From: a virus
Virus record (IMG/VR): IMGVR_UViG_3300005514_000008
Span: 1-27,668 of that record
DNA length: 27,668 bases
Direction: 5' to 3' (one strand)
Part shown: piece by piece, positions 14,714 to 25,941 of the stretch
Layout of the letters: each line of letters starts with the position of its first letter
Numbering within the stretch: the stretch's first letter is position 1
Notes under the pieces: model-generated
The model's input: only the letters and a program-made list of their open reading frames with translations
Told to the model about the DNA's origin: nothing
The model's database searches: none
Position numbers and translations under genes: made by a program

Positions 14714-14938
14714 ATGAGTTCTACAATGATTAAAGTAATGAATTTTGACCATTTACAAAGAGATTTAAAATCTAATGCTATTGTAAATACTAGTTCAACT
14801 GAATATGAGATATATATTGCTAGAAAACAACAAAGAGAATTAGATAAAAATAAAATGCAAGATATGTGTAGAGAAATAAATACTTTAAAGGCAGAATTAA
14901 TAGAAATTAAAAGGATGATAAAATCAAATGGCAGTTAG
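14714..14938 (+). CDS. Small coiled-coil phage protein, function unknown
   Basis: A 74-residue protein from ATG 14714; starts at ATG 14726 or 14738, or an upstream TTG at 14693 that overlaps the 2034-aa gene, are possible and none has an ideal ribosome site. The N-terminal part contains F-D-H-L-x-R-D-L-K-S-N-A-I-V-N-T, followed by Y-I-A-R-K. The last 40 residues form a clear Leu/Ile heptad pattern rich in Lys and Glu (R-E-L, I-N-T-L-K-A-E-L-I-E-I-K), expected to be a coiled coil. Its 3-prime end overlaps the next fibre gene by 11 bases. I recall similar small proteins of unknown function near fibre genes in cyanophages; an assembly or trimerisation aid is a guess. Confidence 0.7.
   Translation: MSSTMIKVMNFDHLQRDLKSNAIVNTSSTEYEIYIARKQQRELDKNKMQDMCREINTLKAELIEIKRMIKSNGS
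14875..14882 (+). promoter_or_regulatory. Possible late promoter AATAAATA upstream of fibre gene
   Basis: The octamer AATAAATA fits the relaxed NATAAATA late motif described for T4-like cyanophages and lies 45 bases before the fibre start at 14928. It is inside the coiled-coil gene and could be chance in AT-rich DNA. Confidence 0.25.
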
Positions 14939-16229
14939 ACAAGTCGCAACGACAGATAGTTTAGATAAATTAAGAACGGAATTTAACGCTCTTGCTTTAT
15001 CTGATTTTGGAGACATTGCAACACTAGATAGTTCATTGTCAGCAACTACGGTTATAGGTGCTGTAAATGAAATTAACGCAATCGCAATTGCCGCTGCTGG
15101 TTTTACACTAACAGACGGTACAAACAATCAGGCGGTTGCTTCTGGTAACACATTGACCGTAAGTACTGGTACAGGTTTAGAAGCTATCGTATCATCACCA
15201 GATACATTAACAATTAACTTGGATACTAATTTAACAGGTTTAACAACTATAGATGTTAATACTTCTGCTGATATTGGAAATATAACTATTTCAAATGGTT
15301 CAATTGTATCTTCAAGTGGTACAATAGATTTCGGAAACGAACAATTAAATACAAGTGGTGGAATAACTGCTGGTGGAACGGTAGTAGGTGCTGGTGTAAC
15401 CATTAATGGTGCTTCAATGAAATTTGAAGGTGCAACTGCTAACTCTTTTGAAACTACATTAAGAGTTGATGACCCAGGACAAGATAATACAATTACTTTA
15501 CCAGATAGAAGTGGAACCGTAATCACAACAGGTGATACAGCTACGGTTACTCAAACAATGATAGCTAATGACGCTGTTAGTACAGACCAAGTTGCTGACA
15601 CTTCAATAACGGTTGCTAAATTAAAAGATTTTCCAACTTCAACATTAACCGTAGATACTTTAATTGCAAATAATATTACAGGTACCGCTTCACAATCAAA
15701 TGCTGTTGCTATTACTGCTGACAACACAGCAAACGCAACAAGATATATTACTTTTGCTGACGCAACTTCTGGTAACCAAGGATTAAAAACAGATACAGAT
15801 TTATATTACAATCCTTCAACAAATACATTAACAACAACTGCTACAAAAGCAAACTATGCTGACTTGGCAGAAAAATATTTAACTGATAAAGAATATCCAG
15901 TAGGTACCGTCTTATGTATAGGTGGTGTTGCTGAGGTAACTTCTTGTAAACAAAATCATTGTACAAAAGTTGTAGGTGTTGTATCAGAAAAACCTGCTTT
16001 CATAATGAATGGAAGTTTAGAAGGAATGTCTGTCGCTGTTGCATTAACAGGAAGAGTTCCTTGTAGAGTATGTGGACCTGTAAGAAAAGGCGATATGATT
16101 GTTAGTTGTGAAAAAGAAGGTTGTGGAAGAGCAGAAGCAGAACCTAGAACAGGTGCATTAATTGGAAAATCTTTAGTCAATGATGACTCAACAGGAGAAA
16201 GAATTGTTGAAATAGTTGTTGGTAAGTAG
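14928..16229 (+). CDS. Tail-fibre-like protein with Cys-rich C-terminal domain
   Basis: A 433-residue fibre-like protein. The N-terminal part (A-T-T-D-S-L-D-K-L-R-T-E-F-N, V-I-G-A-V-N-E-I-N) is the usual attachment segment. Residues about 60-300 are Thr/Ser/Asn/Gly-rich beta repeats including N-T-I-T-L-P-D-R-S-G-T-V-I-T, seen in many phage fibres. From residue 311 (A-D-L-A-E-K-Y, then Y-P-V-G-T-V-L) comes a conserved fibre-end domain with G-V-V-S-E-K-P-A-F-I-M-N and G-R-V-P-x-R-V-x-G-P-V-x-K-G-D. In this copy the domain carries seven cysteines (330, 340, 345, 379, 382, 394, 399) including a C-x-x-C, suggesting disulphides or metal binding. The start overlaps the previous gene by 11 bases, with an AAAGGATGA ribosome site at 14909-14917. 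It lies immediately before the modification cassette. Confidence 0.8.
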   Translation: MAVRQVATTDSLDKLRTEFNALALSDFGDIATLDSSLSATTVIGAVNEINAIAIAAAGFTLTDGTNNQAVASGNTLTVSTGTGLEAIVSSPDTLTINLDTNLTGLTTIDVNTSADIGNITISNGSIVSSSGTIDFGNEQLNTSGGITAGGTVVGAGVTINGASMKFEGATANSFETTLRVDDPGQDNTITLPDRSGTVITTGDTATVTQTMIANDAVSTDQVADTSITVAKLKDFPTSTLTVDTLIANNITGTASQSNAVAITADNTANATRYITFADATSGNQGLKTDTDLYYNPSTNTLTTTATKANYADLAEKYLTDKEYPVGTVLCIGGVAEVTSCKQNHCTKVVGVVSEKPAFIMNGSLEGMSVAVALTGRVPCRVCGPVRKGDMIVSCEKEGCGRAEAEPRTGALIGKSLVNDDSTGERIVEIVVGK

Positions 16230-16238
16230 GAGTATATA

Positions 16239-16718
16239 ATGGACGAACAAACTCAATTGTGGATTAAACGATTAAAAGACGAAATCCAAAATCATAACAG
16301 ATACGAAGCAAGACAACTATTTTACATAGATGATAATGGACTTGACCGAGAGGTTAAAGAACATATGACTTATGGAGAATGGTTAAGAGAATTTAATAGA
16401 TTTAAAGTTATTAAGGTGGAAGGTTTAGAAGATGTCTCTTGGTTAAGAGAAGTTTTAGATGAAGTAGTAAAGAATATCACAGGTAAGACTAGACAAGATA
16501 TTCATTTATTTGTGAATCAAAAACCAGGTGTTAGTTTCAAATCTCATAAAGACGACAAAGATGTTTACTTATATGTTGTAAAAGGCAAAAAGAAAGTAAA
16601 TATGAATAATGAGGTTAAACCGATATATGATGATGAAGGAATTATCATTAAACAAGGTGTTGAACACTTTGTTGAAAGTGAAGCTGATACTTGGGGGTTA
16701 AGTATTGGAGTTATATAA
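16239..16718 (+). CDS. Cupin/JmjC-like protein with HxD...H metal site
   Basis: A 159-residue protein. The N-terminal half is a charged helical region (residues 1-85). The C-terminal half looks like a small double-stranded beta-helix: F-V-N-Q-K-P-G-V-S-F, then H103-K-D105, a strand L-Y-V-V-K-G-K-K-K-V (111-120), and G-V-E-H143-F-V. This HxD...H arrangement is the Fe(II) triad of JmjC/cupin-type 2-oxoglutarate oxygenases, though the protein is shorter than most enzymes and no clear 2OG-binding basic residue can be assigned. It could equally be a metal-binding cupin without oxygenase activity. An AGGAG ribosome site at 16228-16232 precedes the ATG. It is the first gene of the accessory cassette and sits two bases before the first radical SAM gene, so the two are probably co-translated. 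Confidence 0.6.
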   Translation: MDEQTQLWIKRLKDEIQNHNRYEARQLFYIDDNGLDREVKEHMTYGEWLREFNRFKVIKVEGLEDVSWLREVLDEVVKNITGKTRQDIHLFVNQKPGVSFKSHKDDKDVYLYVVKGKKKVNMNNEVKPIYDDEGIIIKQGVEHFVESEADTWGLSIGVI

Positions 16719-16720
16719 TA

Positions 16721-17755
16721 ATGAATTGGATGTTTTATGTCAAAACAACCGAAACCTGTAATCTAAATTGTAAACATTGTTTTACTTCAGGTACATCTGG
16801 ACCTAAAGTATATTGGGACACAACAAAGATTATTAAATGGTTCAAAGCATTTCGCAAATTTAACTATCACAAAAACGACACAGCACATTTAGAATTTCAC
16901 GGTGGTGAACCATTTTTGGTTCCTGTATCTGAAATGGATTATGTGTATGACGCAACTAAAGGATTGTGGGACAATCAATCTTATGGTGTAACCACTAATC
17001 TTTGTTTCAAATTAAAACAAGAACACATAGATTTTATGAAAGGTCCTCTTGGTGGCAGATGTGGAACATCTTGGGATCCGAAGATTCGTTTTGAGAATGA
17101 AAAACAATTAAACTTATGGAGACGAAATGTTGCTACTTTAGTTGATGAAGGTATAACGGTTAAACTTTTTATATCAGTAACCAAAGATACAATAGCAATT
17201 GAGCCAATTGAATTATTGAAATGGGTAAAGGATTTAGGTGTTAAAGAAATGGCACTTGAAAGATTGACAGGTAATGGTAATGCAAACTTACATCCAGAAA
17301 TATTCCCACGAAACATAGACCAAGATAAATGGTTTTTAAAAATGCACGAGCAGATGATACAATACAATGCTAGAAAGTGGTTTGAAAATGAATTTTTTGA
17401 AACTATTTACTCAAAATTTACTGCTGGAGACAATACGCAAGGAACTTTCTGTAGAGATTGTGAACAAAAACTATTTACACTAAACGCAACTGGCACAATA
17501 GGTGGTTGCCCTAATGCTGCTCCTGAATTTACTTTTGGAACGCTAGATGACCCTTTGGATGGTCTTATAAATAGTCCTAAGCGATTACACAATATAGCGT
17601 GTGAAGTGGCAAGAAACCCATTGTGTTGGGAATGTCCAGTTTTCAAGTATTGTGGTGGAGATTGTCACCAATTAGGATGGCAAGGTGATATATGTGGCGC
17701 TCCGAAATCACTTATGAAACATTTGGCGCAAAATAGAAGTGAGGCAATATGGTAA
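16721..17755 (+). CDS. Radical SAM/SPASM peptide-maturase-like enzyme (rSAM 1)
   Basis: A 344-residue radical SAM protein. The cluster motif C13-x3-C17-x2-C20 (C-N-L-N-C-K-H-C) binds the SAM [4Fe-4S] cluster, followed by the SAM-contacting G-G-E-P at about residues 60-63. The C-terminus has a full SPASM layout: C244, C247, C263 and C294, then C302-x2-C305-x5-C311-x3-C315 and C325, able to hold two auxiliary clusters. SPASM proteins of this size typically modify ribosomal peptides or proteins (sactipeptide and cyclophane maturases, anSMEs). ATG 16721 was chosen with GGAG at 16707-16710; a TTG at 16691 would only add ten residues inside the previous gene. Its last seven bases overlap the start of the CHxS-tailed protein, making that protein the prime substrate candidate. 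Confidence 0.92.
   Translation: MNWMFYVKTTETCNLNCKHCFTSGTSGPKVYWDTTKIIKWFKAFRKFNYHKNDTAHLEFHGGEPFLVPVSEMDYVYDATKGLWDNQSYGVTTNLCFKLKQEHIDFMKGPLGGRCGTSWDPKIRFENEKQLNLWRRNVATLVDEGITVKLFISVTKDTIAIEPIELLKWVKDLGVKEMALERLTGNGNANLHPEIFPRNIDQDKWFLKMHEQMIQYNARKWFENEFFETIYSKFTAGDNTQGTFCRDCEQKLFTLNATGTIGGCPNAAPEFTFGTLDDPLDGLINSPKRLHNIACEVARNPLCWECPVFKYCGGDCHQLGWQGDICGAPKSLMKHLAQNRSEAIW
17566..17573 (+). promoter_or_regulatory. Possible internal late promoter ahead of CHxS-tailed protein
   Basis: Exact TATAAATA inside the SPASM region of rSAM 1, about 175 bases before the 17749 start. It could give the putative substrate its own late, high-level transcript. Being inside coding sequence (Leu-Ile-Asn-Ser codons) it may be fortuitous. 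Confidence 0.3.
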
Positions 17756-18522
17756 CATTAACAAGTCCGATAACGGCACAGAACATTGTAGATAGATTTA
17801 AAGAATTGGTAACAGATGTAGCTGATACTCAAATAGTATGGGGTACAGATAGTTTACCAGGACACTCAGCGTTTGCTGCTTCAGATTTTGGTGGAGTAGT
17901 AGATGGTATGTCTTTAGTATTAACTAGTGCTAGTGGAACTTTTACAGCAAGCGAAACGGTTACAGGTTCTATTTCAGGTACGGTAGGTACGGTTGTAGAT
18001 TATTCTAGTAATACATTAAAAGTTAGAAATATAGTAGCAGGTTCTGGACAAACAAATTTTTTACAAAATGATGTTTTAACTGGTTCTAATTCTGGTGCAA
18101 GTGGAACTATTTCAACAATGACAGAAGTATCAGCAGTTAGTCTTGGTATATCAGGAACTAATATTGGTACGGTGGGAAGTAATATTAACGCTTTCAACAT
18201 ATACAATACATTAAAAACAGAAATGTTGCTTTACACTAATATTAAAAATACAAATGCTGTGGTTACAATGACAGGTGCTGGTCAACAATATTCAGATACA
18301 CAAATTGCACACTTACCAACAGGACAAAGAACAAATCCCACAATTTCTCAACCAGGTACATTAACGCAAGGACAAGTTGTTAGTTCAACAAGTATAGAGA
18401 GCTTTATGTCATCACTTGCAAGTACATATAATACTGAAAGAGGAACAACTTATACATTGACAAAAACTATTTGCCATTCAAGTTGCCACTCTAGTTGCCA
18501 CGGAAGTAGGAGCAGAAGATAA
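17749..18522 (+). CDS. Virion-like protein with C-terminal Cys-His-x-Ser repeat tail (candidate rSAM substrate)
   Basis: A 257-residue protein whose ATG overlaps the rSAM 1 stop (ATGGTAA). Residues 1-50 resemble a fibre or tail attachment end. Residues 62-125 hold two Gly/Ser/Thr-rich modules (E-T-V-T-G-S-I-S-G-T-V-G-T-V near 69-82 and D-V-L-T-G-S-N-S-G-A-S-G-T near 108-120) of the same kind as in the baseplate and 2034-aa proteins. A helical segment follows (148-165), then an extended Thr/Gln-rich stretch. The only cysteines are in the last 16 residues: C242-H-S-S, C246-H-S-S, C250-H-G-S, then R-S-R-R. The domain order (virion-type body plus a Cys/His/Ser repeat end) resembles a precursor protein with a modifiable C-terminal core. 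Function and modification are inferred; the alternative is an unmodified metal-binding or adhesive tail. Confidence 0.85.
   Translation: MVTLTSPITAQNIVDRFKELVTDVADTQIVWGTDSLPGHSAFAASDFGGVVDGMSLVLTSASGTFTASETVTGSISGTVGTVVDYSSNTLKVRNIVAGSGQTNFLQNDVLTGSNSGASGTISTMTEVSAVSLGISGTNIGTVGSNINAFNIYNTLKTEMLLYTNIKNTNAVVTMTGAGQQYSDTQIAHLPTGQRTNPTISQPGTLTQGQVVSSTSIESFMSSLASTYNTERGTTYTLTKTICHSSCHSSCHGSRSRR
18472..18507 (+). repeat. Three tandem Cys-His-x-Ser coding repeats
   Basis: Three consecutive 12-base units encode C-H-S-S, C-H-S-S and C-H-G-S. The units are not identical at DNA level: the His codon is CAT or CAC and the third codon is TCA, TCT or GGA, while TGC and AGT are constant. This fits conservation of the peptide rather than a very recent DNA duplication. 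The tail R-S-R-R follows immediately before the stop. Confidence 0.9.
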
Positions 18523-19214
18523 TGATTGAAACTATAGTACCAATTGATTTAAAGAATTTAAAAAAATATTTTGAAGATAAATCTGAAAGTTATATGATAG
18601 ATTATGAAAAGAGTAAATTAAAAGGTGCTCAATTCTTAACTTATATAAGCAATTTAGATATACCTTGCGATATATTAAACTATGATGATGAATTACTATT
18701 ATCATATTTTGAAACACAAATGTTAGTAAGTATACCGATGTTAGAAAGAGTTGCTATGCAAGTTCTTTTTGAACATAAAGGTTTAGAGAAAAATGTACTT
18801 CACGGTGCTTTTATTTCTCAAAATTTAGAGATAATAGAAGAATGGGCAAACAAATTAGAAAGTCTGCCTTTATACAATATGTCTATTGTAGGAGAAGGTG
18901 CTTTTAAAGATTTTGTTGAGACTTATCCTAAAGATGAGACTAATGATGTAAAAGGTATTAATTTTGTTAGTCTATTGAAACATACAGATTTTTATTCTTA
19001 TTATAATAAAACTAACGAAAAGAATGTTAAGTATTATACTAAATACTTTACAGAATATATGTTTAAAGGCAAAAGTCTATTTGATTATTGGGGTGTAAAA
19101 GAAAACCCTATGTTTTTAATGACTTGGGCAGTTGCTGAAGGAAAGTTTGATACTAAAAAATATAACGAAGCTAAAAAAGCTGATATAGGAAGATTAAATG
19201 CTACACCTGTTTAA
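18522..19214 (+). CDS. Unknown helical protein of the rSAM cassette
   Basis: A 230-residue protein that I do not recognise. Its ATG shares one base with the stop of the CHxS-tailed gene (TAATG), so translation is coupled. The sequence is rich in Leu, Lys, Glu, Tyr and Phe with predicted alpha-helical character throughout. It has no membrane segment, only one cysteine (C49) and no nucleotide-binding or metal motif that I can see. Aromatic-rich stretches (D-F-Y-S-Y-Y-N-K at about 163-170, K-Y-Y-T-K-Y-F at 177-183) and F-D-Y-W-G near 194 stand out. Because it follows the putative substrate immediately, a role as its chaperone, recognition partner or assembly factor is possible, but this is context only. 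Confidence 0.75.
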   Translation: MIETIVPIDLKNLKKYFEDKSESYMIDYEKSKLKGAQFLTYISNLDIPCDILNYDDELLLSYFETQMLVSIPMLERVAMQVLFEHKGLEKNVLHGAFISQNLEIIEEWANKLESLPLYNMSIVGEGAFKDFVETYPKDETNDVKGINFVSLLKHTDFYSYYNKTNEKNVKYYTKYFTEYMFKGKSLFDYWGVKENPMFLMTWAVAEGKFDTKKYNEAKKADIGRLNATPV

Positions 19215-20313
19215 TAAAGTTTATTTACAATTTGATGACTCAATAGATTGTCATACAAATAGATATGTTATTTCCGAAGAAAAAGGAAATCCAATGCTAT
19301 CAGAATTAGGTAGTGCTTATAGAGGCACACTAATTAACTATGCTAAAAATAGAAATGAAATGCAAGGTAAGTTTGACGACTTAACTGGTTTCTTTGAAGA
19401 TGTATGTACTAAACAAAAATCATTAAATAGTAAAGTTGTTATATATTGCGACACACAAGCATTTTTAGAATTATCTGTTATCTGGTTAAAAACTATCTTA
19501 CCTTTTGGTGATAGTGATAGTATTGTTAAATACCTAGACATACATTTACACAACGAAAGAATTATTACAAATACACAATGTCAACCAACACATATTTTAG
19601 ACTTAACTAAACTGAATGCAGGTTTAGGAGATGTTAAAGGATATGCTGATGTTTTACCTACTTTAGAATTAGATAGAATTAAAGCGCTTAATTTAAATTT
19701 CTCAATTGAATTATTGCTTGGAGAGTATTTTGCTGGTGCTGATACACACGAAGACAATTTACTTTCCTCTTATCATATGTTCTTAAAAAGATTTTATAAA
19801 GAGATATTAACAGATGTTAGAGAAGATACATTATTAAATCTTTTAAATAAATCGCAACAAACTGCTGTAGGTTATTCTGATAGTGATGTTGTAATAAATG
19901 CTGATAACCCTTTTGAAGGAATTACAGAATTGGCTGCCTTTGCTGATACGGATGTCTTTACGGCGAAACCTGTTGCAAATGCTGGATATGTGAATACAAT
20001 AACTATAGATAATTTGTCAAGTGAAAAACAAACTGCATTAAAAACTATAATTAACACAATACAAACACTACAAAATATTCCAAATCCAGATTACTCAATG
20101 GCAAATTTTGATAAAGCGTGTCAGACATCTTTATCTAAAAGTGATTTTGATACAATAATTAATGAAGCGGTGGCGAATAGTCCATCTTTGGCGTATATTC
20201 CAAGATTTGATATTGGTAATGTTAATTACTCTTTTATTCAATATCTACTTTCTTTAAAGAAAGATAACGATTCAAGTACGCTAGGGAAATACAGACTATT
20301 CGCAAACTCGTAG
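19198..20313 (+). CDS. Unknown phage protein in the rSAM cassette
   Basis: A 371-residue protein of unknown function overlapping the previous gene by 17 bases, with AGGAAG (19187-19192) in front of its ATG. The N-terminal segment (L-F-N-K-V-Y-L-Q-F-D-D) and a hydrophobic strand K-V-V-I-Y-C-D near residue 79 followed by a Leu/Ile-rich helix suggest an alpha/beta N-terminal domain (about residues 1-135). This is followed by a mainly helical half with Asn/Asp/Thr-rich linkers (about 230-300). I vaguely recall similar proteins starting M-L-x-L-F-N-K-V-Y-L in marine T4-like phages near radical SAM genes, without an assigned role. No metal or nucleotide motif is evident. It may act with the 230-aa protein, as the pair are tightly coupled downstream of the CHxS protein. 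Confidence 0.75.
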   Translation: MLHLFNKVYLQFDDSIDCHTNRYVISEEKGNPMLSELGSAYRGTLINYAKNRNEMQGKFDDLTGFFEDVCTKQKSLNSKVVIYCDTQAFLELSVIWLKTILPFGDSDSIVKYLDIHLHNERIITNTQCQPTHILDLTKLNAGLGDVKGYADVLPTLELDRIKALNLNFSIELLLGEYFAGADTHEDNLLSSYHMFLKRFYKEILTDVREDTLLNLLNKSQQTAVGYSDSDVVINADNPFEGITELAAFADTDVFTAKPVANAGYVNTITIDNLSSEKQTALKTIINTIQTLQNIPNPDYSMANFDKACQTSLSKSDFDTIINEAVANSPSLAYIPRFDIGNVNYSFIQYLLSLKKDNDSSTLGKYRLFANS

Positions 20314-20321
20314 GAGTTTAA

Positions 20322-21374
20322 ATGCGTGAGTTTTTAATAGACCCCAAAAGAGACCCCGAGCAGGAGTACACAATTCATTTATTTGAATTTTGTAATTTAA
20401 GATGTGCTTTCTGTTGGCAAAACCACGAAGACACGGTTGGAATAGATACCGTAATCAATAAATTAATTCCCGTAGAAAAATTTATCAAACACGAATTGAT
20501 GATGAGTGTTGTATTTAATATTATGGGTGGCGAAGTCTTTGCACCTGCCATCTACAATAAAGAATTAAATCACGCTTATAAAACTTTATCAAAAGGCATA
20601 CAAAAGATATGTGAACGATATGATAAGAAAGTTAGAATTAATTGGGTTACTAATTTGATTATGAGTGATGAAGGTAATGAGTTATTAAGAGATTTATTAA
20701 GTTGGTCTGAACACGAAGGTATTGAAGCAACAATTACTACAAGTTATGATCCTAGAGGAAGATTTAGTAAAACAGATTTAGAACGATTTAAACAACAAGT
20801 AATCTATTGGGGAAAAGAAATAAAATCTTTTTCAATGTTAATAACTAAACCAATGATAAAGTATCATTTAGAACAAGGTGACCCATACTTTAAACACTTA
20901 TATGACCAAGGTTATGAAATTTATTTTGATTACTATACACCAGACCAACACGCAAAATTTTTTATGCCAAGTGATACAGAATTATTAAAGTTCTTTAAGT
21001 ATATAATAGATAACTATCCAAATTGTTCTCCTGTAAGAGAATGGATATTTAAGAAAAGAAATTATGCTAGTTGTAGAACAAGTAAATTGATATTACAAGA
21101 TAATACATTATGTCAATGTGGTAATCTTGTACAGGACCCAAAAGATTTAGTAATGTATAGTTCTCCTATAAAGAAAAAAGACAACTCAATTATTGAAAAT
21201 AAATTTTTAGAAAAATATAATTGTGCTAGTTGTGAATTTTTAGATAGATGTACTTTAGGTTGCTTTATGAACCACGATTATAAATGGAGGGAAGAATTGG
21301 ATGAATGTGTTTACAAACTTACGCACAGATATATTGAAAATGTACGAGTACAAAGAAACTTTATCGCAACCTGA
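20322..21374 (+). CDS. Radical SAM/SPASM protein (rSAM 2)
   Basis: A 350-residue radical SAM protein. C24-x3-C28-x2-C31 (C-N-L-R-C-A-F-C) is the SAM-cluster site, preceded by a strand H-L-F-E-F; M-G-G-E-V near residue 69 corresponds to the GGE motif. A SPASM-type C-terminus shows C251, C264, C266, then C301-x2-C304-x5-C310-x3-C314 and C329. It differs from rSAM 1 in nearly all non-motif positions, so the two are not recent duplicates. The ATG follows an AGGAG ribosome site (20312-20316) after an eight-base gap, and the 3-prime end overlaps the next gene by 74 bases. Likely a peptide or protein modifying enzyme; the substrate is unknown, with the CHxS-tailed protein the nearest candidate. Confidence 0.9.
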   Translation: MREFLIDPKRDPEQEYTIHLFEFCNLRCAFCWQNHEDTVGIDTVINKLIPVEKFIKHELMMSVVFNIMGGEVFAPAIYNKELNHAYKTLSKGIQKICERYDKKVRINWVTNLIMSDEGNELLRDLLSWSEHEGIEATITTSYDPRGRFSKTDLERFKQQVIYWGKEIKSFSMLITKPMIKYHLEQGDPYFKHLYDQGYEIYFDYYTPDQHAKFFMPSDTELLKFFKYIIDNYPNCSPVREWIFKKRNYASCRTSKLILQDNTLCQCGNLVQDPKDLVMYSSPIKKKDNSIIENKFLEKYNCASCEFLDRCTLGCFMNHDYKWREELDECVYKLTHRYIENVRVQRNFIAT

Positions 21375-21936
21375 TATTTCAAAACTTAAAATTAACAATA
21401 CAGACATTGAAATACAATTAGATAAATTTCCAGTTCAGAAACCATTTATACCTAGAATAGATGGTAGACAAGCACATTTATTTTTATGGTTAGGTAAGAA
21501 AGAAGATGATATTGAAACTTACAATCTAGCAGAAAAGAATATAGGTGAAAAGATGTGGGTACATAATAAAACACCTAATACTTTTATAAAAGGTGTAGGT
21601 ATGTTTCATATCTATGATGAGTATGTTATAGTAGGGTCTTTAAAGTATCCTGGTTATATGCGAAGTAAAAGTCCAGTAGAAAGAAGAAGATTGATAAGAA
21701 CAATGTGGTGTGAAACAATTAATATATTTAAAGATAGAAGAATATTATGTCCTACAGGAACTTATTTTGATTATTTACATTTATCTATGAATCAAATGAA
21801 GGCACAAAAAGAACCTTATCATAGAGAGATAATGCAACAATTTGGTTTTGAAAAAGATGTTATATATGACCACTTTTGGATTAGAGATAAAGATACAAAA
21901 ACTGGTTTAAATTGGATTGAATTATATGGAGATTAA
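21301..21936 (+). CDS. Unknown protein between rSAM and oxygenase genes
   Basis: A 211-residue protein that I do not recognise. The start at 21301 has a good GGAGGG ribosome site (21285-21290) but forces a 74-base overlap with rSAM 2; an alternative ATG at 21340 shortens the protein by 13 residues and has no visible ribosome site. The sequence includes F-I-P-R-I-D-G-R-Q-A-H-L-F-L-W-L-G-K near residues 46-63, R-R-R-L-I-R-T-M-W-C near residue 130 and a His/Tyr/Phe-rich end (Y-D-H-F-W-I-R-D). It appears to be a compact alpha/beta protein with no signal peptide. Position suggests an accessory factor of the modification cassette, but nothing in the sequence names a reaction. Confidence 0.7.
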   Translation: MNVFTNLRTDILKMYEYKETLSQPDISKLKINNTDIEIQLDKFPVQKPFIPRIDGRQAHLFLWLGKKEDDIETYNLAEKNIGEKMWVHNKTPNTFIKGVGMFHIYDEYVIVGSLKYPGYMRSKSPVERRRLIRTMWCETINIFKDRRILCPTGTYFDYLHLSMNQMKAQKEPYHREIMQQFGFEKDVIYDHFWIRDKDTKTGLNWIELYGD

Positions 21937-22504
21937 ATTTACAGATACGATAAATGTTTTTGACGATTTCTTAACTGATAAAGTGTTAATTAATAAGTTA
22001 AAAAAAGAAAGTAAAATTGATACTACAATTAAAGGACAAGATACATTTAATTTTACGCCTTGTCAAAAAGAATTTTCTAAAATTGCAAATGCAACATTGA
22101 TAAACTATTGTCTATCAAATAATATAGATTATAATAATTTAGAGTTATCTAATTTTCAAAAAGGTAGATTAAAGAAGTATGATAAGTCTAGTGTGACCAA
22201 TCATTTATATGAACCACACCACGACCAAGTTGAAGGTGCTTTTATTTCTGCAATCTATTATATAGATAGTGATTATACACCTGAAAAATGGGTAGGTGGT
22301 GAATTAAGTATATACAAAAATTTAACCTTTGCTGAATACCCAAATAACACCATAAACATAGAACCTATACCTAATAGACTGATAATGTTTCCTGGGTTTC
22401 TAGTACATAGAGTTAAACCATACTTCGGAGAAAATCCTAGAACATCTTTAGTATTAGGATGGGAAGTAAAAGACCAACCAAAAACTGAACCGATATGGAT
22501 TTAA
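21926..22504 (+). CDS. 2-oxoglutarate/Fe(II)-dependent oxygenase (first)
   Basis: A 192-residue protein with the complete prolyl-hydroxylase-like 2OG/Fe(II) signature: H98-x-D100 (in E-P-H-H-D) followed by strands A-F-I-S-A-I-Y-Y-I, a G-G-E-L-S-I-Y strand at 124-130, then F-P-G-F-L-V-H161-R and R172-T-S, the basic residue that binds 2-oxoglutarate. These enzymes hydroxylate protein side chains or small molecules and are frequent in T4-like marine phages near structural genes. ATG 21926 is preferred over a TTG at 21917; it overlaps the previous stop by 11 bases. Followed by rSAM 3 with a 10-base overlap, indicating one polycistronic unit. The target is unknown. Confidence 0.88.
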   Translation: MEIKFTDTINVFDDFLTDKVLINKLKKESKIDTTIKGQDTFNFTPCQKEFSKIANATLINYCLSNNIDYNNLELSNFQKGRLKKYDKSSVTNHLYEPHHDQVEGAFISAIYYIDSDYTPEKWVGGELSIYKNLTFAEYPNNTINIEPIPNRLIMFPGFLVHRVKPYFGENPRTSLVLGWEVKDQPKTEPIWI

Positions 22505-23583
22505 TAATTAAACCAACTGAATTATGTAATTTCAAATGTACATTTTGTTCAAGTACTCAACTAACAAAAGAGAAAAAGAATTGGTTGAAACACGAACAAA
22601 TATTTGAGTTCTTAACAAGATTTCCTCATACTAAAACTATTATAGTAAATGGTGGGGATCCTTTGATGATGGAACCTGAATACTATTGGAAGATTATTAG
22701 ATGGTTAGATGAAAGAGATTATGCAACATCAATTTCTCTAACAACAAACTTATGGCCGTTCTTAAAGAAACCTAGTTTGTGGGTAGACTTATTTAATGAT
22801 AAAAGAATAGGAGTAACCACTTCTTTTCAATATGGTGGTGGAAGATTAAAAGGAGACTTTACAGAATTTACGGAAGACGACTTTTGGCAATGTTCAGACG
22901 CAATGTTAAAGTATTGTGATTATAGACCAGACTTTATTTCTGTTATAACAAAAGAAAACAAACACAATGCAATTAAAAATGTTGAGTTAGCAAAGTTTAT
23001 GTCAGAAGATAGAGAACCAGAAGGTACTTTACATAATTTATATAGAGAAGAAAAAACTGGTGTTGAATGTAAATTAAATTATGCAATGGCAAGTGGTGAC
23101 CAAAAAGAACCATTTTTATTATCAGATATATATGAGATATATACTAAAATATATAATCAAGGTTTAGCACCTTGGGAATTTAATACGAAACAAATGATGT
23201 TGACTATTAAAGATTGTAGTACTACTTGTCCTTTAAGTAGAAAGTGTGATGAAGGTATAAGATGTTTACAACCCGATGGAGACTATTATAGTTGTGGTGC
23301 TTTTGGTGATGATAGAGATAAAGAAATAGATTTTAAAAGAGAAATGAAAGGTGAGTTTTTTACACCTTTACAAGATGACCTTTCATTAAATAGTATGAAA
23401 AAATCTTGTTATATTTGTCCAATGTTTAATATATGTAATGGTTGTAGAAAAACAATAAAAGATTATCAACACGCTGGAGTAATAGAGAAACATTGTGAGA
23501 AGATGAAACGAATAGGACCTGATATACTAAAAGCAAATGGCAGTACTTTACAAATGACACCATATATAAGTGAGGCACAATGA
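22495..23583 (+). CDS. Radical SAM protein with extended Cys-rich C-terminus (rSAM 3)
   Basis: A 362-residue radical SAM protein. The cluster motif is C11-x3-C15-x2-C18 (C-N-F-K-C-T-F-C), with N-G-G-D-P near residue 52 as the GGE-equivalent. The C-terminus is the richest in cysteine of the four: C241, C245, C251, C257, C267, then C305-x2-C308-x5-C314-x2-C317 and C334. The SPASM block has x2 instead of the usual x3 between its last two cysteines, so its auxiliary-cluster ligation may differ. The start lies within the previous gene's last ten bases; the end overlaps the next oxygenase by four (ATGA). Sandwiched between two 2OG oxygenase genes, it may act in series with them. Confidence 0.9.
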   Translation: MDLIIKPTELCNFKCTFCSSTQLTKEKKNWLKHEQIFEFLTRFPHTKTIIVNGGDPLMMEPEYYWKIIRWLDERDYATSISLTTNLWPFLKKPSLWVDLFNDKRIGVTTSFQYGGGRLKGDFTEFTEDDFWQCSDAMLKYCDYRPDFISVITKENKHNAIKNVELAKFMSEDREPEGTLHNLYREEKTGVECKLNYAMASGDQKEPFLLSDIYEIYTKIYNQGLAPWEFNTKQMMLTIKDCSTTCPLSRKCDEGIRCLQPDGDYYSCGAFGDDRDKEIDFKREMKGEFFTPLQDDLSLNSMKKSCYICPMFNICNGCRKTIKDYQHAGVIEKHCEKMKRIGPDILKANGSTLQMTPYISEAQ

Positions 23584-24101
23584 TAAAAACTAGTAATAAT
23601 ATAGAAAATGTTTTAATCAATGGAGTTTGGCCTACAGCAGACCCATTGCCGTTTAGATTTTTTGAAGGTGTTGAAATACCATTTAAAAGTTTAGAAGGTT
23701 ATAAAGTAGCAGTACATACTCCAGAAGTTGAGAATGCTCTCAAAATGTGCCATACTTATTTGGGTAATAAATATATTAAACAATTGTCTAATAAGTATAA
23801 CTTATATGGTCAACCAGAAATAGTTAACGGAGTAGACAAAGGTTCGTTGAATTGGCATAATGATAATAAAGAAGGAGCAAATATTGCTGCTATTATCTAT
23901 TTCACTTCAGCAAGTAATCCTGATACAGGAGGACAATTAGAAGTAAGAAGTAAGGACAACAAAAGTTTATCTGCATACTTGTACCCAGGCAAGACAGATG
24001 TAGTATTATTAAACCACGCTAAACAATGGGAACATAGAGTTGGAGAATTTAAACCAATAGGTGTTGAACGAATAGCAGGATATTTTGACTATAATATATG
24101 A
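23580..24101 (+). CDS. 2-oxoglutarate/Fe(II)-dependent oxygenase (second)
   Basis: A 173-residue protein with the 2OG/Fe(II) oxygenase core: L-N-W-H93-N-D95, strand I-A-A-I-I-Y-F, G-G-Q-L-E-V-R at 117-123, then H152 in W-E-H-R-V and R164 in E-R-I-A-G-Y-F. It resembles the short prolyl 4-hydroxylase-like proteins of cyanophages. Sequence similarity to the other oxygenase in the cassette is confined to the motifs, so it probably has a different target. The start overlaps the rSAM 3 stop as ATGA, and the stop overlaps a 34-aa ORF in the same manner. Protein-side-chain hydroxylation of a virion protein is plausible but inferred. Confidence 0.88.
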   Translation: MIKTSNNIENVLINGVWPTADPLPFRFFEGVEIPFKSLEGYKVAVHTPEVENALKMCHTYLGNKYIKQLSNKYNLYGQPEIVNGVDKGSLNWHNDNKEGANIAAIIYFTSASNPDTGGQLEVRSKDNKSLSAYLYPGKTDVVLLNHAKQWEHRVGEFKPIGVERIAGYFDYNI

Positions 24102-24202
24102 GTGAATTAGAATTTTTTAAATTTATACAACAAATGGAAAAAGAAGTATACGGTATTACTCCATTCTTTGAGGAATTAGATTATGACGAAACAGAAAATT
24201 AA
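24098..24202 (+). CDS. 34-residue acidic small protein, unknown
   Basis: A short frame (ATG 24098, TAA 24200-24202) that exactly bridges the space between the second oxygenase and rSAM 4. Its ATG overlaps the oxygenase stop as ATGA, and its end overlaps the rSAM 4 start by 20 bases, the same packing used by the annotated genes. The peptide is acidic (ten Glu/Asp against three Lys) with M-S-E-L-E-F-F-K-F-I-Q-Q at its start and F-F-E-E-L-D-Y-D-E-T-E-N at its end. It contains no Cys and no Arg. It could be a leader-like or recognition peptide, a small subunit, or just a spacer frame that keeps ribosomes loaded for rSAM 4. Confidence 0.5.
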   Translation: MSELEFFKFIQQMEKEVYGITPFFEELDYDETEN

Positions 24203-25157
24203 TTTATCAATTAATCCATCTTATCATTGTAATTTTAGATGTTCTTGGTGTTATCTTACACCTAAACAATTAGGTGACACTAAAACTATAAGTGATGAAA
24301 GATTAAATGAATTACTAGCAGAAGTTTCTGCTCATAGAGAAATTAATCATATTGATTTATATGGTGGTGAGATTGGTCTATTAAAGAAAGAACAATTAAA
24401 GAACATCACAGAAGTTATTAGATTATATTATAAAGATAAAATCAATATCAATACAAACCTTTCCGTATTAAGAGAAGAATTTTTTTATCCTGAATATTAT
24501 TTAAGTGTATCTTGGGATTTAGAAACTAGACAAGACTTTATTAAAGTTAGAGAGAATATGGCGAAACTGCCAGTTGACTTTTCTCTATTATGTTTAGCAA
24601 CAAAAGAAGTAATGCACCATTCCGTAGAACACTTTTGGTCTATGATTAATAGAATTAACTTTGAATCTGAAAAAGCAAATCGTGGTAAATCTCATTTAAA
24701 AAGTGTAGAAGTAAAACCTTATAGTGCTAATCAAGCAAATGACCAAGAAGTAACCCACGCACAATACGAAGACTATATTTTAAAATTACTAGAAATGGAA
24801 AGTTCATTGAAAAAAGGTAAATATGAATTTGTAAATAAAAAGAAAGTAATTGCTTCTTTAAATAAAGAATATAACGCATTTAGCGATGACCATTTATATA
24901 TTACACCAAACGGTAAGTTCGCTGTATTAGAATTTGATAAAGATAATAGAGAATACTTTTTAGAATTAAATAGTTTTGAAGAATATGAAAATTGGTGTAA
25001 AAAAGAAAAAGAGAAAACAATATCACCTATATGTAAGAGTTGTGAATATCTAGGAGGTTGTTTAACAGAACATTATCAATATGTCAAAGATTTAGATAAT
25101 GGTTGTAATGGATATAGGTATCTATTGGATACTTATGAAATGAGATATGGCAAATAG
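24183..25157 (+). CDS. Radical SAM protein with twitch-like single auxiliary site (rSAM 4)
   Basis: A 324-residue radical SAM protein with C16-x3-C20-x2-C23 (C-N-F-R-C-S-W-C) and Y-G-G-E-I near residue 61. The C-terminal cysteine set is reduced compared with the other three: C272, then C284-x2-C287-x5-C293, with H297 where a SPASM protein has its fourth cysteine, and C308. This suggests one auxiliary cluster (twitch-like), perhaps with a His ligand. The middle contains a long Lys/Glu-rich helical region (about 165-230). Start ATG 24183 lies inside the 34-aa frame; the end overlaps the next gene by 11 bases. Likely a distinct reaction or substrate from rSAM 1-3. Confidence 0.88.
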   Translation: MTKQKINLSINPSYHCNFRCSWCYLTPKQLGDTKTISDERLNELLAEVSAHREINHIDLYGGEIGLLKKEQLKNITEVIRLYYKDKININTNLSVLREEFFYPEYYLSVSWDLETRQDFIKVRENMAKLPVDFSLLCLATKEVMHHSVEHFWSMINRINFESEKANRGKSHLKSVEVKPYSANQANDQEVTHAQYEDYILKLLEMESSLKKGKYEFVNKKKVIASLNKEYNAFSDDHLYITPNGKFAVLEFDKDNREYFLELNSFEEYENWCKKEKEKTISPICKSCEYLGGCLTEHYQYVKDLDNGCNGYRYLLDTYEMRYGK

Positions 25158-25941
25158 AGCATTTTGTATAGGTAATGGAAGAAGTAGAAAAGGTTTTAAT
25201 TTAAACTCATTAAAATCTCGTGGAGTAATATTAGGTTGTAATAATCTATATAAAGATTTTGCGCCAGATATATTAGTTTCAGTTGACCATCCACTTATGC
25301 ACAACATTTATAATTCTGGTTATTGTTATACTTCTAAATGTTATTTTAGAGATTGGATAAAAATACCACAAGAGAATTATGAAAATATGTTGGCAGGTTT
25401 CTTTCCTGATTATAGACATATAAGAGCAATAAGAAAGTCAGGTCATTTAGTAGAAAACAATAGAGCAGGTTCAAATGAATTTGTATTGCACGGATATAAT
25501 GACAAACAAACTGGAAAGAATATGGTGACGGTAAGTTGGTGTACAAAAGATTATGTTTATAATATGACGGATATAATAAAAGATCCAGAGCAAACAATGT
25601 GGTCTGCTGGTCCTTCAAGTGGTTATATTGCTTGTAAGACTATTAATAATATGAAAGAAGTATATTTAATTGGACACGATTTATATAGTTCTAATAAATC
25701 ATTTAATAATGTCTATGCAGGACAACCTTACTATGTATCAGATACACACCCTAGTAATTATTATGTACAGAATTGGATAATGCAATGGAAGAAGTTGTTT
25801 AGATGGTATCATCATATTAAGTTTTATAAAGTCAATAGAAGAAATTTTTTAAATATAAATGTTCCTGAATGGAATGATTGTAAGAATTTGGAGTATATAA
25901 GCTATGAAAGAATGGAAAATCAAACAAGAAGTCTACCATAG
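25147..25941 (+). CDS. Rossmann-like MptE/DUF115-type phage protein
   Basis: A 264-residue protein. The N-terminus has a nucleotide-binding-like turn, C-I-G-N-G-R-S-R-K-G (residues 7-16), followed by G-V-I-L-G-C-N-N-L-Y and P-D-I-L-V-S-V-D-H-P. A second half carries S-A-G-P-S-S-G-Y-I-A and E-V-Y-L-I-G-H-D-L-Y. This pattern is shared with phage proteins I recall as related to the MptE-like/DUF115 family, which includes 6-hydroxymethylpterin pyrophosphokinase-like and flagellin-associated sugar-transfer proteins. A role in adding a sugar or other activated group is therefore possible but not shown. It overlaps rSAM 4 by 11 bases and the following gene by 38 bases, so it belongs to the same polycistron. 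Confidence 0.6.
   Translation: MANRAFCIGNGRSRKGFNLNSLKSRGVILGCNNLYKDFAPDILVSVDHPLMHNIYNSGYCYTSKCYFRDWIKIPQENYENMLAGFFPDYRHIRAIRKSGHLVENNRAGSNEFVLHGYNDKQTGKNMVTVSWCTKDYVYNMTDIIKDPEQTMWSAGPSSGYIACKTINNMKEVYLIGHDLYSSNKSFNNVYAGQPYYVSDTHPSNYYVQNWIMQWKKLFRWYHHIKFYKVNRRNFLNINVPEWNDCKNLEYISYERMENQTRSLP

Follow-up and report, generated by a model that had tools for sequence, protein, structure and literature searches.

Parts of the locus described here resemble several known systems. Hxs peptide systems have His-x-Ser repeats near the C-terminus of the peptide and two neighbouring radical SAM (rSAM) maturases, whilst the maturases of ranthipeptides/SCIFF, cyclophanes and darobactin/dynobactin are SPASM rSAM enzymes acting on ribosomal peptides. 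The rSAM enzyme anSME acts on a Cys or Ser of a folded protein, with no peptide being released, and in the T4 gp37 needle HxH repeats bind iron. Where marine and jumbo phages carry genes for radical SAM proteins, cupins and 2OG oxygenases, these are usually catalogued as accessory or auxiliary (e.g. PMC7029224, PMC11898562). PHROGs 1802, 20767 and 35144 already hold, respectively, the rSAM enzymes, the partner protein P and the tag end reported below, but they are annotated separately, as 'radical SAM' or with function unassigned, and are not joined as one system. A search of the open-licence literature found no description of the motif, or of a phage rSAM/RiPP system of this kind, and the gene cluster is apparently undescribed.

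The window, that is the whole 27,668-nucleotide stretch of viral DNA analysed here, contains a plus-strand ORF (17749-18522) encoding a 257-residue protein, termed the TAG protein, which ends in TKTICHSSCHSSCHGSRSRR followed by the stop codon (18520-18522). Its last 16 residues, CHSSCHSSCHGSRSRR (codons 18472-18519), are the candidate modified core, hereafter the tag, which is kept in 112 diverged representatives. Several features that a sequence-only reading of the window had picked out hold: the protein is free of cysteine before the tag (the only cysteines are residues 242, 246 and 250), residue 3 is the sole position that differs between the units CHSS, CHSS and CHGS, and synonymous codons vary among these units (CAT or CAC for His and TCA or TCT for Ser, in TGC CAT TCA AGT, TGC CAC TCT AGT and TGC CAC GGA AGT). 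The same reading placed the start of the gene over the stop of a radical SAM/SPASM gene, and indeed the ATG (17749) lies in a 7-nt overlap with the TAA (17753-17755) of rSAM-A (16721-17755). At its other end the TAA of the ORF overlaps by 1 nt the ATG (18522) of the downstream gene P.

An AF2 model of the TAG protein (pLDDT 84 overall, with the tag residues of low confidence at ~58-67), considered together with BFVD matches and with phrog_35144, which is matched by the last 28 residues, gives an architecture of an N-terminal domain, an inserted beta-domain at about residues 53-130, a conserved helix and the tag. The inserted domain resembles many cyanophage structural, fibre and baseplate proteins among the BFVD models. 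Compared with the PDB the modelled fold gave zero matches, so that TAG has no named fold, and neither TAG nor P has a close relative among PDB sequences; searches of phages with the whole protein (tblastn) and with a 24-residue tail query, which is short, found nothing. The BFVD matches include a 296-residue protein of phage Atu_ph07, the same length as gp170 of that phage, and gp170 is the Atu_ph07 tag protein (numbering checked). The Atu_ph07 virion proteins detected by ESI-MS/MS cluster in CDS 170-215 (PMC6102473). Because the three clusters reported are equal in length (46 CDS each), the edge at gp170 may reflect how the clusters were drawn, and the placing of the tag protein in the virion is suggestive only.

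In order to follow the tag beyond the window, IMG/VR was searched with a degenerate DNA pattern for CHxSCHxSCHGS, which returned 103 stretches. In nearly all of these the motif is in frame, exactly 16 residues before a stop codon, and is followed by R[GSA]RR, an ending that lay outside the search pattern. A looser pattern, CHxxCHxxCHxxRxRR, gave a larger number among the matches listed. The consensus, CHx[S/N]CHx[S/N]CHx[S/N]R[G/S]RR followed by the stop codon, forms the last 16 residues of ~110 diverged proteins. Among 112 TAG representatives less than 70% identical to each other, C1, H2, C5, H6, C9, H10, R13, R15 and R16 are invariant, all nine having been required by the filter applied; Ser or Asn predominates at residues 4, 8 and 12, whilst residues 3, 7 and 11 are free. 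These nine positions, and the RxRR end that the first pattern did not contain, argue that the repeat did not arise by chance. Averaged over pairs, identity reaches 0.81 within the tag and 0.13 (ungapped) over the 40 residues before it, and across the family the Cys, His and Arg codons of the tag vary freely and Ser alternates between TCN and AGY. A near-invariant peptide on a diverged body, written with differing codons, is under purifying selection, and selection on the peptide was first suggested from the codons of the window. Amongst 40 whole virus records, chosen for holding the tag so that the count is partly one of construction, 39 have it in one gene or in a few genes at most, and a reversed-pattern control scored 0 in all. 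The exception is a 504-kb record (G138, locus L024), in which a five-unit tag, CHTNCHSSCHSSCHSSCHGS, ends in SGGW in place of RxRR. Tag-end variants in the six INPHARED phages named below are CHNSRSRR, CHSSRSRR and CHSARGRR.

The TAG gene lies within a fixed operon, directly upstream of which the window encodes homologues of PAAR, gp25, gp6, a gp9-type connector and gp8, and then a tail-fibre-like protein (14928-16229, plus strand; phrog_19602 tail fiber protein, E=2e-7), which we treat as context and not as an established substrate. The C-terminal domain of this fibre-like protein is Cys-rich (TSCKQNHCTK, CRVCG, SCEKEGCG), and it is possibly a second substrate. The operon, whose genes are all on the plus strand, opens with a cupin-like protein (16239-16718; Cupin_2, E=2e-5, under the gathering score), found in the same position in 55 loci, and continues with rSAM-A (16721-17755; phrog_1802, E=3.7e-65), a radical SAM/SPASM protein with its CxxxCxxC motif and SPASM cysteines intact, and with the TAG gene. 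Next come P (18522-19214; phrog_20767, a family without assigned function), which is the constant partner, Q (19198-20313; 63 loci), a conserved protein also without assigned function, rSAM-B (20322-21374; phrog_1802, E=5.7e-41) and R (21301-21936; 24 loci), a small conserved protein of no assigned function that is found in part of the phage loci only. A 2OG-Fe(II) oxygenase-like protein (21917-22504; phrog_81, E=2.8e-10), rSAM-C (22495-23583; phrog_1802, E=2.1e-54), a second protein of a 2OG-oxygenase-like family (23580-24101), recognised by a family HMM and with a weak PHROG match (phrog_19592 only), and rSAM-D (24183-25157; phrog_1802, E=1.3e-34) complete the set. The order cupin, rSAM-A, TAG, P, Q, rSAM-B, (R), 2OG, rSAM-C, 2OG, rSAM-D recurs in ~85 loci, and a second set of loci agrees. 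In one lineage there are two tandem short TAG genes, with P ~1-2 kb off and the rSAM genes farther away. Directly 3' of rSAM-D the window also encodes a conserved protein of unassigned function (25147-25941; phrog_30607).

The association of tag and enzymes was then read in the opposite direction, from searches that did not start from the tag, the first two of which covered the closest relatives of the query. Relatives of P in IMG/VR, sought with an alignment of closer P sequences, have a tag gene just upstream in 79/79 testable loci, with one more locus cut by a contig end; the tag was looked for as C[HY]xxC[HY] only, and all loci nonetheless had the full form. The closest relatives of rSAM-A have the tag gene downstream in 75/75 testable loci, five others being cut within 300 bp. 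In INPHARED (50,697 phage records) P and rSAM-A each match seven records, the same seven, representing six phages (Burkholderia FLC6, FLC8 and SURPRISE13, Agrobacterium Atu_ph07, Sinorhizobium Phosso and Pseudomonas pPa_SNUABM_DT01), and in all six the tag is located between rSAM-A and the following genes, the tag protein being gp72 in both FLC6 and SURPRISE13. Conversely, 38 of the 40 tag-bearing virus records searched whole have phrog_1802 rSAM proteins, most of them exactly four, and the two that lack them are fragments of 36-37 kb. The sequence-only reading had named a tail kept in genomes without a radical SAM gene as one result that would count against it, and this check did not refute it. 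Its proposal of a candidate core at the C-terminus of a virion-type protein is supported, and that core is genetically locked to rSAM/SPASM enzymes. As in a RiPP cluster, the gene of a ribosomal candidate precursor stands beside those of tailoring enzymes, in a fixed operon and in every testable locus of both searches.

All copies of the operon may descend from one cluster, so the co-occurrence counts are not independent of one another. Single-cluster descent is also what would be invoked if these were functionally unlinked auxiliary metabolic genes, the tag an inherited structural end and the neighbourhood a product of descent, and such genes are commonly reported as accessory (PMC11898562). 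Nevertheless, the segment before the tag has fallen to ~13% identity and yet the tag and its operon are retained in T4-like phages, in jumbo phages and in Bdellovibrionota, and we regard the absence of any functional link as very improbable.

The rSAM enzymes themselves form four orthologous clades. In a quick FastTree phylogeny (midpoint-rooted) of 100 rSAM sequences from 26 loci, every sequence was placed in one of four clades with support of 0.96-1.0, each comprising one paralogue from the window and nearly one member per marine phage, jumbo phage or Bdellovibrionota locus, rSAM-B, -C and -D each having a clade of their own. With about one copy of each per genome, the set looks like a single inherited multi-step pathway. 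An alignment of 20 diverged rSAM-A sequences showed CxxxCxxC, HGGEP and the SPASM cysteines to be invariant, and the SPASM domain (TIGR04085) scored above its cut-off (28.3 bits against 27). The closest solved relatives of rSAM-A are anSME (4k36/4k37) and others, mostly peptide- or protein-modifying rSAM enzymes, and the nearest solved or named relatives of the operon rSAM proteins in general are likewise largely of this type.

Profile scores separate the system from the known rSAM systems. The sequence-only reading had noted that the H-x-S triplets recall the Hxs systems, with the difference that each unit also starts with Cys, and membership is not borne out: the window rSAM proteins reached 35.6 bits for HxsB (cut-off 370) and 31.7 for HxsC (cut-off 267.9), and the HxsA precursor model TIGR03979 did not match the window TAG protein. 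The Hxs systems have two rSAM enzymes as against four clades here, whilst the tag system in its common form has a Cys in every unit and a folded, virion-type substrate ending in RxRR. A likeness remains in one Bdellovibrionota locus (L377), where the tag reads CHSSHSSHSSHSSRGRR and the protein gives a weak HxsA match, 16.1 bits against a cut-off of 121.65. Ranthipeptide and SCIFF maturases were rejected on the same grounds (PapB 32.7 against 340; SCIFF maturase 19 against 425); rSAM-A and -C show weak profile similarity to these and to the cyclophane and darobactin/dynobactin maturases, but no curated cut-off is reached and substrate, partners and gene set differ. The relationship of rSAM-A to anSME extends over its full length, but the score is far under the cut-off, the tag lacks a CxPxR motif and there are four rSAM enzymes in place of one. 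The system as a whole matches no named family among those compared by profile scores, and the known kind to which it would belong is radical SAM peptide maturation.

From the operon and its neighbours we infer, with more confidence than doubt, a RiPP-like pathway in which four rSAM enzymes and the cupin and 2OG proteins modify the tag of a baseplate or fibre protein. The substrate would be the folded TAG protein, encoded beside T4-like baseplate genes, and the part modified its C-terminal tag, CHx[S/N] three times and then RxRR, on which rSAM-A to -D, together with the cupin and 2OG-Fe(II)-type enzymes, would act in several steps. P, and also Q, may assist by binding the substrate, presenting it or assembling it; P has no fold match in the PDB, which leaves its reading as a PqqD-like RRE without fold support. 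What results would be a tip, hardened or functionalised by this chemistry, at the end of a protein associated with the baseplate or fibre, and this protein may help the particle to engage the envelope of its target cell or to get across it. For the tag itself the sequence-only reading had offered thioethers, His-based cyclophanes or metal coordination, each of which may be the outcome. A C-terminal core served by a multi-enzyme cluster would equally suit a strict RiPP precursor, whose tag is modified, cleaved and released as a small diffusible product. Not every RiPP needs a leader peptidase and export, but a scan with Pfam, PHROGs and NCBIfam recognised no peptidase or exporter among the operon genes of the window, the protein begins with a folded domain of virion type that exceeds the usual size of a leader, and the cluster sits in a phage baseplate region; to a released peptide we accordingly attach hardly any weight.

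Evenly spaced Cys and His residues at the extreme C-terminus of a baseplate-neighbourhood protein, with a PAAR protein in the same module, also fit a metal-binding tip, in which a trimer would bind iron or zinc through its Cys and His residues and the rSAM and 2OG enzymes would act elsewhere or only help. In the T4 gp37 needle, too, a His motif is repeated at the tip of a phage fibre, but the needle has no rSAM operon, and its likeness to the tag is drawn from the sequence pattern. Metal binding would not explain why four rSAM clades and P constantly accompany the tag, the conserved RxRR end is no ligand set, and the same enzymes are kept where a PPP spacer separates two CH units or where only the first unit has a Cys, all of which makes this explanation unlikely. 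The single-Cys variants further argue that a Cys in each unit is not essential to the system, and suggest that the important feature may be the His, the H-x-S unit or the first Cys.

These variants come from the Bdellovibrionota. Our GTDB scan gave 88 pattern matches, most of which were dropped as chance (not C-terminal, often in GC-rich frames), and left genuine tags in several Bdellovibrionota MAGs; P was found in 17/369 Bdellovibrionota genomes as against 0/369 and 0/396 in two control groups. Several of the loci sit, by eye, among chromosomal genes (e.g. ribosomal-protein S20-like and cytochrome-complex-like), and no tail sheath scored over the cut-off in nine tag-bearing genomes, which argues against an obvious prophage or contractile system. 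Besides the common form, tags there read YCHGNFPPPCHGSRGRR, YCHTNVPTPPPCHASRGRR, YCHSNHCSHSNHGSRGRR, WCHSSHSSHSSHSSRGRR and FICHSNCYTPPPKSRSRR, and the first CH and a basic SRxRR end are constant across the variants. At loci L371-L377 and L461, P adjoins tags that have been re-shaped, with PPP spacers or with His repeats of period 3, and the PPP-type loci have about three extra rSAM-like genes (e.g. FLEKMSKTNVDNIENMDFVLNLDILNGC), with Q not found.

Few parts change as little from variant to variant as the basic SRxRR end, P is the constant neighbour and a fibre-like gene adjoins. This would suit a tag that serves P or the rSAM enzymes as a signal for docking or recognition, with the modification elsewhere on TAG or on a fibre protein; the rSAM and 2OG enzymes could indeed act on another protein. 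Three Cys-His repeats would be superfluous for docking, however, and in the Bdellovibrionota the form of the tag and the enzyme set differ together, which fits the tag as substrate better than as signal, and we therefore hold a docking role to be rather improbable. Modification of the tag itself remains the reading that we prefer, and the Bdellovibrionota would use the same pathway beside S74/prepilin fibre genes. A Peptidase_S74 protein lies within a few kb of the operon in 7/7 Bdellovibrionota loci examined, and in 3/7 a prepilin N-methylation motif in these proteins scores above the cut-off. In seven loci (L360-L362, L371, L373, L375 and L376) short proteins with the S74 chaperone domain of phage fibres stand beside the tag operon, several with prepilin-like N-termini, and near them is a protein ending in [VI]xxRHWVK. 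The MAT adhesins of Bdellovibrio are S74 fibre proteins (PMC10769870) and so provide a precedent for phage-like S74 fibres in a predatory bacterium, but the text of that paper does not mention radical SAM, and the S74 neighbours found here differ from MAT proteins in being short and, in some cases, having a prepilin-like start.

The tag-bearing MAG lineages are, judging by taxonomy, predators. An operon present in very different tailed phages and in Bdellovibrionota suggests that both chemically finish a protein tip for meeting or entering cells. A more speculative extension, which we would sooner doubt than accept, is that one ancient four-rSAM pathway of tailed phages and predatory bacteria equips an appendage, used to contact or break through the envelope of the cell to be invaded, with a Cys-His tip reshaped by covalent chemistry. 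This would be a new virion or surface-fibre modification and, if so, a molecular tool shared by two kinds of bacterial invader. Their grouping in a single conserved operon, centred on a tag that hardly varies, suggests that phage radical SAM, cupin and 2OG genes of this type finish a structural protein instead of being accessory. Phages would then carry multi-step radical chemistry for building a part of the virion, Bdellovibrionota would apply the same chemistry beside fibre and prepilin genes, and there would be a new class of modified peptide end to characterise. In phages FLC6 (L105) and SURPRISE13 (L109), two genes annotated as dihydrofolate reductase (gp77-78 in each) lie between rSAM-B and rSAM-C, at the position that R and 2OG occupy in marine phages, and these genes may serve the pathway rather than nucleotide metabolism.
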